From NCBI RefSeq assembly GCF_008807375.1, contig NZ_CP043311.1, forward strand, positions 2,398,001-2,462,000: a DNA stretch of 64,000 bases, written 5' to 3'. Below the pieces are notes generated by a model that was not told the DNA's origin, ran no database searches, and saw only the letters and a program-made list of their open reading frames with translations. The translations under genes and the position numbers were made by a program. This DNA is from Pseudomonas lalkuanensis. Lineage in GTDB: Bacteria > Pseudomonadota > Gammaproteobacteria > Pseudomonadales > Pseudomonadaceae. Positions 2,498 to 25,338 of this stretch are shown one piece after another. The number at the start of each line of letters is the position of its first letter. Within the stretch, counting starts at the first letter, position 1.

Positions 2498-5400
2498 ATG
2501 AATGCCCAAGACGCCCTCAGACTCGCCCATCGGTTCATCGAGCTGCCCGTGGAAAAGCGCCGGCTCTTCCTCGAAGGGCTGCGCAAGGAGAGCGTCGACT
2601 TCAACCTGTTCCCCATTCCCGCCAACGTCGCCATTCCCGAGCGCGAGCGGCTGTCCTACGCCCAGCGGCGCATGTGGTTCCTCTGGCAGCTGGACCCCCA
2701 GGGCGCGGCCTACAACCTGCCGGGCGCCGTGCGCCTGCATGGTGCGCTGGACGTGTCCGCACTGGAGCAGGCGTTCGCCGCGCTGGTCGAGCGCCATGAA
2801 ACCCTGCGCACCACCTTCCACCTGGACGGTGGCGTGACGCTGCAGCGCATCCATGAGTGCGCGCCCGTCGAGGTCGAGCACGAAGACCTGACCCTGCTAC
2901 CCGCTGCGGCCCGCGAAACCCGCGCCCGCCAGAGCGCCGAGGAGCAGGCGCGGAAGCCCTTCGACCTGGAGCAGGGCCCGCTGCTGCGCCTGAAGCTGGT
3001 CAAGCTCGCCGCTGATGAACACCTGCTGCTGGTGACCCTGCACCACATCGTCTCCGACGGCTGGTCGATGAATGTGCTGATCGACGAGTTCTCTGACCTG
3101 TACCGCGCCTTCAGCGCTGGCGAGCAGCCTGTGCTGGCGGCTCTGCCCATCCAGTACCGCGACTACGCCCTCTGGCAGCGCCAGTGGCTGGAAGCCGGCG
3201 AGCAGGAGCGCCAGCTCGACTACTGGAAGGCCCGCCTGGGCAGCGAGCACGGCCTGCTGGAACTGCCCGCCGATCATCCGCGCCCGGCCAGCCCCAGCTA
3301 CAGGGGCGTGCGCCTGGCGTTCGCCATCGAACCCGAATTGGCCGAGCGACTGCGCGGCCTGGCCCGCCAGCAGGGCGTCACCCTGTTCATGCTGCTGCTG
3401 GCCAGCTACCAGGTGCTGCTGTCGCGTTACAGCGGCCAGCGTGAAATCCGCGTTGGCGTACCCATCGCCAACCGCAACCGCGCGGAGACCGAGGGGCTGA
3501 TCGGCTTCTTCGTCAACACCCAGGTGCTGTGCAGCGAGTTCGACGGCGCGCTGCCGTTCTCCGCATTGCTGCAACAGGTGAAGCAGGCCGCCCTCGGCGC
3601 CCAGGCCCATCAGGAACTGCCCTTCGAGCAACTGGTTGAAGCGCTGAATGTGGAGCGCAACCTCAGCCACAACCCGCTGTTCCAGGCCCTCTACAACCAC
3701 CAGCCGTTCGTCGCGGATGTCACCGCGCTGGATAGCCTGGGGGGCCTGAAGATCAGTCGACAGGAATGGGACGGCCGCACCACCCAGTTCGACCTGGCCC
3801 TGGACACCCTGGAACAATCCGGCCGTCTGGAAGCGGCGCTGACCTACGCCACCGACCTGTTCGAGCGCGCCACCGCCGAGCGCATGATTCGCCACTGGCT
3901 GAACCTGCTGCGCGGCATAGTCAGCAACCCCGAACTGGCGGTGGGCGAATTGCCGTTGCTGGATACCGAGGAAATCACCCGCCAGGTGCAGGGCTGGAAT
4001 GCCACCGCCACGGACTACGGCTACACGCCGGTGCAGCGCCTGTTCGAAGCCCGGGCCGCCGCGCAACCGGACGCCCCGGCCCTGGCCTTCGGCAACCAAA
4101 GCCTGACCTACGCCCAGCTCAATGTCCGCGCCAATCGCCTGGCGCACAAGCTGCGCAGCCTCGGTGTCGGCCCGGAAAGCCTGGTGGGCGTGGCCTGCGA
4201 GCGTTCCGTCGAACTGGTGGTGAGCCTGCTCGCCATTCTCAAGGCCGGCGGCGCCTACGTGCCCTTCGATCCGGAGTACCCCCGCGACCGCCTGGCCTAC
4301 CTGTTCGACGACAGCCGCATCGCACTGCTGCTGACCCAGAGCCACCTGCTGGCCGAGCTGCCATTGCCGGAAGGCGTCACCAGCCTCTGCCTGGACCAGG
4401 ACAGCGACGCCCTGGAAGCCTTCAGCGCCGCCAACCCGGACGTCGCCATCGCGCCCGGCAACCTTGCTTACCTCATTTACACCTCCGGTTCCACCGGCAA
4501 GCCCAAGGGCGCCGGCAACACCCACGCGGCGCTGCACAACCGCCTGGCCTGGATGCAGGCCGCCTACCAGCTCGACGCCGGCGACACCGTGCTGCAGAAA
4601 ACGCCGTTCAGCTTCGACGTGTCGGTGTGGGAGTTCTTCTGGCCGCTGATGGTGGGCGCGCGCCTGGCTGTGGCCGCTCCGGGGGATCACCGCGATCCGG
4701 CCCGGCTTCTGGCGCTGATCGAGGCGCATCGGGTCACTACGCTGCACTTCGTGCCGTCCATGCTGCAGGCCTTCGCTTCGCAACTGGCGGTGCAAGCGCG
4801 GGGCGCCGCCCAATGCGCGAGCCTCAAACGCATCGTCTGCAGCGGCGAGGCCTTGTCGGCGGAGCTGCAAGGCCAGGTCTTCGCCCGGCTGCCGGGCGTC
4901 GGCCTGTTCAATCTCTATGGCCCCACCGAAGCGGCCATCGACGTCACCCACTGGACCTGCCGCGAGGAAGGCCGCGACAGCGTGCCCATCGGCCAACCCA
5001 TCGCCAACCTCGCCACCTACATCCTCGACGAGCGCCTCAACCCGGTGCCGGTGGGCGTGGCCGGTGAGCTGTACCTGGCAGGCGCGGGTCTCGCCCGTGG
5101 CTACCATCGCCGCGCCAGCCTCAGCGCCGAGCGCTTCGTCGCCAACCCCTTCGCCAGCGGCGGGCGCATGTACCGCACCGGCGACCTGGCGCGCTATCGC
5201 GAAGATGGTGTGATCGAATACCTCGGCCGCCTCGATCAGCAGGTGAAGATTCGCGGCTTGCGCATCGAACCGGGCGAAATCGAAGCCCGCCTGCAAGACC
5301 ATGCCGGCGTGCGCGAGGCGGTGGTCGTCGCCCGCGAAGGCGTCAGCGGCAAACAATTGGTGGCCTATCTGGTGCCGGCGCAGCAGGGGGACGAGGCCGA

Positions 5401-25338: not shown

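Follow-up and report, generated by a model that had tools for sequence, protein, structure and literature searches.

The 64,000-nucleotide stretch of the Pseudomonas lalkuanensis genome analysed here (the window) carries two overlapping genes for large nonribosomal peptide synthetases among pyoverdine (pvd) genes. This raises the question of which pyoverdine the pair assembles, whether the product corresponds to a known structural type, and how the two hydroxyornithine (OHOrn) residues at the end of its side chain acquire their final form.

Organisation of the pyoverdine locus

The features of the locus are as follows, with predicted substrates in brackets.

2415..2438, + strand: PvdS-box-like site, TAAAT-N16-CGT, before synthetase 1
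2498..13573, + strand: synthetase 1, C-A(Ser)-T-E / C-A(Dab)-T / C-A(Thr)-T
13573..25338, + strand: synthetase 2, C-A(Ser)-T-E / C-A(AcOHOrn)-T / C-A(OHOrn, giving cOHOrn)-T-TE
25345..25368, + strand: PvdS-box-like site before the hydrolase gene
25406..26368, + strand: alpha/beta hydrolase (Abhydrolase_3), directly downstream of synthetase 2
26496..28913, - strand: TonB-dependent siderophore receptor (STN, plug and barrel), FpvA candidate by position; start placed by eye
29115..30410, - strand: PepSY-associated transmembrane protein, between the receptor gene and pvdE
30528..32186, - strand: pvdE, ABC transporter of the cyclic-peptide-export type; start placed by eye; upstream box 32230-32253 (-)
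32297..33139, - strand: pvdO (NF051459 above cut-off); start approximate
33169..34446, - strand: pvdN (NF051467 above cut-off); start placed by eye
34472..35815, - strand: presumably pvdM, from position and sequence, with no NCBIfam match; upstream box 35850-35873 (-)
36056..37639, + strand: pvdP, tyrosinase (NF051454 above cut-off); upstream box 35988-36011
37803..42345, - strand: efflux genes, which we take from sequence and order to be PvdRT-OpmQ-like; upstream box 42390-42413 (-)
42475..43479, - strand: FecR-type anti-sigma factor
44254..45654, + strand: pvdA, ornithine N5-hydroxylase, from position and sequence, the best NCBIfam match being below cut-off; upstream box 44204-44227

The initial annotation had described a six-module synthetase pair of a pyoverdine pathway. 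Both the pair and its domain order were reproduced, and alignment returned all six of the nine-residue specificity codes that it had listed, namely DVWHVSLID, DIWELTADD and DFWNIGMVH for modules 1-3 and DVWHISLID, DGECTGGVT and DGECCGGVT for modules 4-6. The longest open reading frame of synthetase 1 starts at 2486, and the ATG of synthetase 2 at 13573 overlaps the TGA of synthetase 1. Inspection by eye suggests that the C domain (HHxxxD), E domain (HHxxxDG) and TE (GWSLGG) motifs are intact and that each T domain has its serine. A Condensation-family search of the genome (one contig, 6.06 Mb) returned 12 domains, eight in the synthetase pair and four in the PvdL open reading frame, which lies near 2.70 Mb, 0.3 Mb from the pair. 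An ECF sigma factor gene near pvdL is named PvdS by position, and the maturation enzymes of the chromophore, PvdP, PvdO and PvdN, are all present as NCBIfam equivalogs above cut-off. The assignment of the pair to a pyoverdine line, in which it assembles the side chain, is supported by the pvd genes in the window together with PvdS, PvdG, PvdL and PvdH elsewhere in the genome. The closest named relative among the best 80 loci, a set that may omit records very near the P. lalkuanensis genome itself, is P. resinovorans DSM 21078, with 90% identity over the queried stretch.

The motif TAAAT-N16-CGT, which we take to be the PvdS box consensus, occurs seven times in the window against 0.55 expected, and none of 100 shuffles reached seven. 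The seven sites precede synthetase 1, the hydrolase gene, pvdE, pvdM, pvdP, the efflux genes and pvdA. The receptor sequence was considered as a marker of peptide type and rejected, as it does not separate Ser-Dab from Ala-Lys lines: identity is 63.2% to the receptor of P. flavescens (Ser-Dab) and 60.1-63.3% to those of four named Ala-Lys lines (L010, L014, L021, L027). No relative of the receptor was found in the examined stretches of P. fragi, P. lundensis and P. saxonica.

The predicted side chain and its relationship to a measured pyoverdine

According to the consulted part of a 2018 review, PvdL is invariant and contributes Dab as its third amino acid in every pyoverdine (PMC6206403); we therefore read the codes that follow the acyl module in the genome's own PvdL, DVWHFGRIN, DAEGIGAVM (in a module with an E domain) and DIWELTADD (the Dab module), as Glu, Tyr and Dab. 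Because the code of module 2 in the window is identical to that of this Dab module and the two A domains are 71.0% identical, compared with at most 44.5% for the seven other A domains compared, the residue that the initial annotation had entered as X, suggesting Dab, can be read as Dab. PvdL would supply Glu, D-Tyr and Dab at the start of the chain, the synthetase pair would then add six residues, the TE domain would release the finished chain, and PvdP, PvdO and PvdN would then mature the chromophore. From the observed domain order, codes, homology and gene content we infer that the product is very probably chromophore-D-Ser-L-Dab-L-Thr-D-Ser-AcOHOrn-cOHOrn, made by an Ala-Lys-type line with two exchanged segments. 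Its succinic-acid form would be C43H62N12O18, with [M+H]+ 1035.438 (calculated from the formula published for the Ala-Lys compound).

The Ala-Lys line in question is that of P. umsongensis DSM 16611 (L021/L105), presumably the same strain as LMG 21317T, and reads Ala(E)-Lys-Thr-Ser(E)-DGECTCGIT-DGECCGGVT. As tabulated, the measured pyoverdine of P. umsongensis LMG 21317T is Ala-Lys-Thr-Ser-AcOHOrn-cOHOrn (PMC4219678), and isolate S3b16 has an identical chain (PMC9925543, PMC8888394). The two lines share six modules in two genes, the E positions, the last four residues, a T5-C6 junction that lacks an E domain and a hydrolase gene downstream, and they differ at positions 1-2, where P. umsongensis has Ala-Lys and the window Ser-Dab. 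With the window as reference, identity to P. umsongensis is 47% for A1, 42% for C2 and 42% for A2, compared with 62-83% for the other compared domains; taking P. umsongensis as the reference instead gives 61% for C1 and 65% for A6 (partly covered; 78% over its full length). A sliding profile along protein 1 places the differing segments at about residues 650-850 (the A1 core) and 1550-2490 (from C2 through most of A2), and outside both segments identity between the two types is about the same as within the Ser-Dab type. In the window these segments correspond, within approximate limits, to:

4424..5026, + strand: A1 core segment, differing between Ser-Dab and Ala-Lys lines; C1, T1 and E1 are common to both
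7124..9946, + strand: C2 and most of A2, the second differing segment; T2 is common to both

By these comparisons the window line is apparently the Ala-Lys-Thr-Ser-AcOHOrn-cOHOrn line with the A1 core (Ala/Ser) and C2-A2 (Lys/Dab) exchanged, and the predicted pyoverdine is a two-segment variant of one measured chain. The initial annotation had left open whether the product matches a known type; the answer is partial, for Ser-Dab-Thr-Ser-AcOHOrn-cOHOrn itself is absent among the measured chains in the published pyoverdine tables compared, which cover the literature incompletely. The Ser-Dab order is also present in P. resinovorans DSM 21078, G127, P. fragi D12, P. lundensis L1802, P. saxonica DSM 108989, Pseudomonas sp. 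7P_10.2 and P. flavescens LMG 18387. Its occurrence across several Pseudomonas species implies that the segment exchange is old. Modules 1-5 of the Ser-Dab line recur, by codes and E positions, in loci L098, L099, L150-L153 and L155; the A6 code lies beyond the ends of these seven stretches and was read in L009, L019, L022-L024 and L028, not for L099. A recent conversion of A1 from A4 of the same genome is unsupported, as identity is not clearly higher inside the exchanged core. Both A-core limits fall close to natural recombination hotspots, which PMC7486941 places in the interval from motif A2 to motif A4 and from A5 onward; partial-A exchanges made in the laboratory gave no visible pyoverdine, according to the same source. 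The Ser-Dab and Ala-Lys lines represent a natural experiment on a shared assembly line, with exchange of an A core at one site and of a C-A unit at another.

Form and configuration of the hydroxyornithine residues

The initial annotation had given the final pair as OHOrn-OHOrn. Both residues remain hydroxyornithine; they are not expected to be alike, since P. umsongensis shares the line except for the two segments (A5 of the window shares 80% and A6 78% identity with its counterpart there) and we therefore refine the pair to AcOHOrn-cOHOrn, one residue acetylated and the other cyclic. The genome has a single Acetyltransf_8 match, a protein of 338 residues encoded close to pvdS, pvdG, pvdL and pvdH. 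Its four formyltransferase-family genes are read from sequence and neighbours as PurN, two PurU and Fmt, and no gene for the formylase PvdF was found among them. PvdA would hydroxylate ornithine and the acetyltransferase would acetylate the product to AcOHOrn; residue 5 would retain its acetyl group and provide the second iron ligand, and residue 6 would cyclise onto its own carboxyl and provide the third. A formylated OHOrn at position 5, or two free OHOrn residues, either of which the earlier wording permits, would agree equally with the A-domain codes, which by themselves do not distinguish the forms of OHOrn, a distinction that no pipeline draws according to the consulted part of PMC11444679. 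Neither form is at all probable here, considering that no PvdF-like gene is among the four formyltransferase-family genes and that the acetyltransferase shares 66% identity with its homologue in P. umsongensis, which makes a product containing AcOHOrn. Gene content thus favours residue 5 being acetylated rather than formylated.

The configuration of residue 5 is less straightforward and concerns the junction between modules 5 and 6:

21136..21429, + strand: T5, with GGDSI as in T domains preceding an E domain; no E domain follows
21436..22722, + strand: C6, a DCL-type condensation domain directly behind T5

The side chain as initially annotated marked D only at the two Ser residues. For residue 5 the absence of an E domain is insufficient by itself, T5 and C6 both being of the D-donor type. 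Condensation domains were classed by the better-scoring of two profiles built from the window's LCL (C1, C3, C4) and DCL (C2, C5, C6) domains. In a set of loci biased by having been fetched mainly by the E-less D-type junction itself, T domains before an LCL domain carry GGHS (26 of 27) or GGNS (one of 27), those before E plus DCL carry GGDS in 87 of 88 cases (motif not found in one), and those directly before DCL carry GGDS in 49 of 53 (motif not found in four). The terminal OHOrn modules found beside the hydrolase gene constitute a less biased set, and here the C domain is DCL-type in 72 of 72, of which 36 follow an E domain and the other 36 do not. DCL ancestry here tracks this kind of terminal OHOrn module, not the chirality of the donor; a different kind of OHOrn terminus carries an LCL-type C domain.

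We predict, with reserve, that residue 5 is L. The GGDSI motif of T5 and the grouping of C6 with DCL domains would also be expected if they report a real D donor, D-AcOHOrn, either epimerised in trans or loaded as D. Such a residue is unlikely: module 5 has no E domain, half of the DCL-type terminal OHOrn modules read beside the hydrolase gene lack one before them, and C6 falls in a clade of 23 E-less C domains (SH-aLRT 97, FastTree 97) whose donors include not only OHOrn but also Ser, Ala and Gly. PA7 codes show the same E-less junction from Ser to OHOrn, and P. aeruginosa type II pyoverdine contains L-Ser. The 37 E-less rows of the tree do not form one clade; at least six changes are needed, three of them forced by well-supported branches, and E domains have therefore been gained or lost more than once. 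A dual C/E function of C6 was rejected, as no second His motif is seen by eye at its N-terminus, and so was a recent duplication of module 5 into module 6, the two C domains being 50% and the two A domains 53% identical and C6 lying in a clade apart from C5. An extra E domain follows the last T domain in 41 of 72 OHOrn-terminal lines with full context (for example L184 and L186), predicting a D-configured last residue in those lines, and is absent from the window. A current predictor derives chirality from the E domain (PMC11444679, in part). The E-less DCL junction cautions against inferring chirality from the C type in terminal OHOrn modules.

The hydrolase gene and its possible role in cOHOrn formation

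The hydrolase has HSL-type esterases and carboxylesterases as relatives in the PDB, all its NCBIfam matches, including chloramphenicol hydrolase, are below cut-off, and no signal peptide was seen by eye. HGGG, GDSxG, Asp261 and His291 are invariant across 100 aligned sequences, including that of the window, and by analogy with the fold family are probably catalytic. A defence-family role was discarded, there being no defence-family match. Relatives (E <= 1e-68) occur in 106 of 398 Pseudomonadaceae genomes, from seven genera, and relatives of the acetyltransferase (E <= 1e-60) in 155 of the same genomes, including all 106 with the hydrolase (Fisher p ~1e-58, uncorrected for kinship). The gene follows a synthetase gene at about -43 to 207 bp in 74 of 78 fetched stretches; in these 74 the last code is OHOrn in all 73 that are readable, one being partial. 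A PvdS box of its own is not a general feature of the gene, as only one of the 78 has it. Among the other 28 hydrolase genomes the last code could be read in 22, for G070, G237 and G377 by way of the named loci L009, L021 and L027, and was OHOrn throughout, six stretches ending within the last A domain, which brings the total to 95 OHOrn termini of 95 read among the 106 genomes. In the other four of the 78 (G311, G284, G355, G360) the hydrolase relatives have 56-58% identity and the 9 kb upstream yielded no synthetase, and one relative, G339:C13:196328-197287, contains an in-frame TGA.

At these thresholds 49 genomes have the acetyltransferase without the hydrolase. A coded last module with TE was read in 30, from stretches picked by likeness to the window's last C-A or TE, which should favour exceptions: in 21 the module follows an LCL domain and its code is of the OHOrn type (DGECTGG(V/I)T or DGEACAG(V/I)T), in eight the code is other than OHOrn, and in one an OHOrn module follows a DCL domain; of the remainder, two gave partial codes and 17 gave no terminus, either because the stretch stopped short or because none was detected. 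Some of these lines may make siderophores that are not pyoverdines, and a genome may hold a second line. The single DCL case, G010 (L128), is a real exception, with a DCL-OHOrn terminus and TE, an adjoining acetyltransferase relative and no hydrolase at E <= 1e-68. Among ten hydrolase genomes examined, within the best 30 matches only, seven have a single OHOrn-coded A domain, which is terminal, and all seven have the acetyltransferase.

We tentatively propose, as a reading that may hold, that the hydrolase is the missing enzyme of cOHOrn formation, deacetylating the last residue on the enzyme to give a free N-hydroxyl amine. Modules 5 and 6 would both load acetyl-hydroxyornithine, C6 would join residues 5 and 6, and the hydrolase would deacetylate residue 6; the freed N-hydroxyl amine would then attack the thioester and close the ring, with or without the TE domain. 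Acetylation is believed to be required for cyclisation before release, and the section of the 2018 review that says so gives no account of how the acetyl is removed (PMC6206403); retention of the acetyltransferase where the only OHOrn is terminal fits this view. A word search for a hydrolase or esterase in the cOHOrn step returned nothing in the consulted parts of PMC6206403, PMC4019867, PMC4219678 and PMC13037486, nor did one for a hydrolase alone in PMC11444679, and these papers sample the literature incompletely; the mentions of a hydrolase in PMC6206403 concern PvdQ. Alternatively, the hydrolase might have no part in cOHOrn formation and simply accompany the terminal synthetase gene, acting in uptake or, like a thioesterase, in proofreading. 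This is plausible, if somewhat doubtful: the gene mostly lies directly behind the terminal synthetase gene, so that linkage alone could preserve the association, the HSL family is broad, G010 ends in OHOrn without the hydrolase, and in four genomes no synthetase was found near it. However, relatives persist in seven genera, they accompany OHOrn-terminal synthetases regardless of an E domain before or after the last module, and the genomes with the 21 LCL-type OHOrn or the eight non-OHOrn termini yielded no relative at E <= 1e-68. Deacetylation by the hydrolase, if correct, would account for the tie between the acetylase PvdYII and P. aeruginosa type II pyoverdine, in whose listed structure no acetyl group appears. 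Through the hydrolase the route to cOHOrn can be tested directly, and gene content may help to tell cOHOrn from acyclic forms, which no pipeline does (PMC11444679, in part).

Among other known systems, the type II pyoverdine of P. aeruginosa is listed in published tables as Ser-FoOHOrn-Orn-Gly-aThr-Ser-cOHOrn (including PMC4219678, PMC9925543, PMC8888394). It shares the terminal cOHOrn with the predicted product, and differs in having seven residues, a formylated OHOrn and another sequence. The codes of PA7 fit type II, with an E-less junction before the terminal OHOrn, and PA7 has homologues of the acetyltransferase (65%) and the hydrolase (51%). Marinobactin/formomarinobactin-like lipopeptide siderophores have, to our knowledge, no chromophore, and the lines that we tentatively assign to this kind differ from the window line in an LCL-type last C domain and in having no hydrolase relative at E <= 1e-68. 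As described in part of PMC13037486, they resemble the pyoverdine line in their OHOrn modules and OHOrn acyltransferase, and differ in carrying OHOrn as acetyl- or formyl-hydroxamates. The pyoverdine predicted here carries a mass by which it can be checked.
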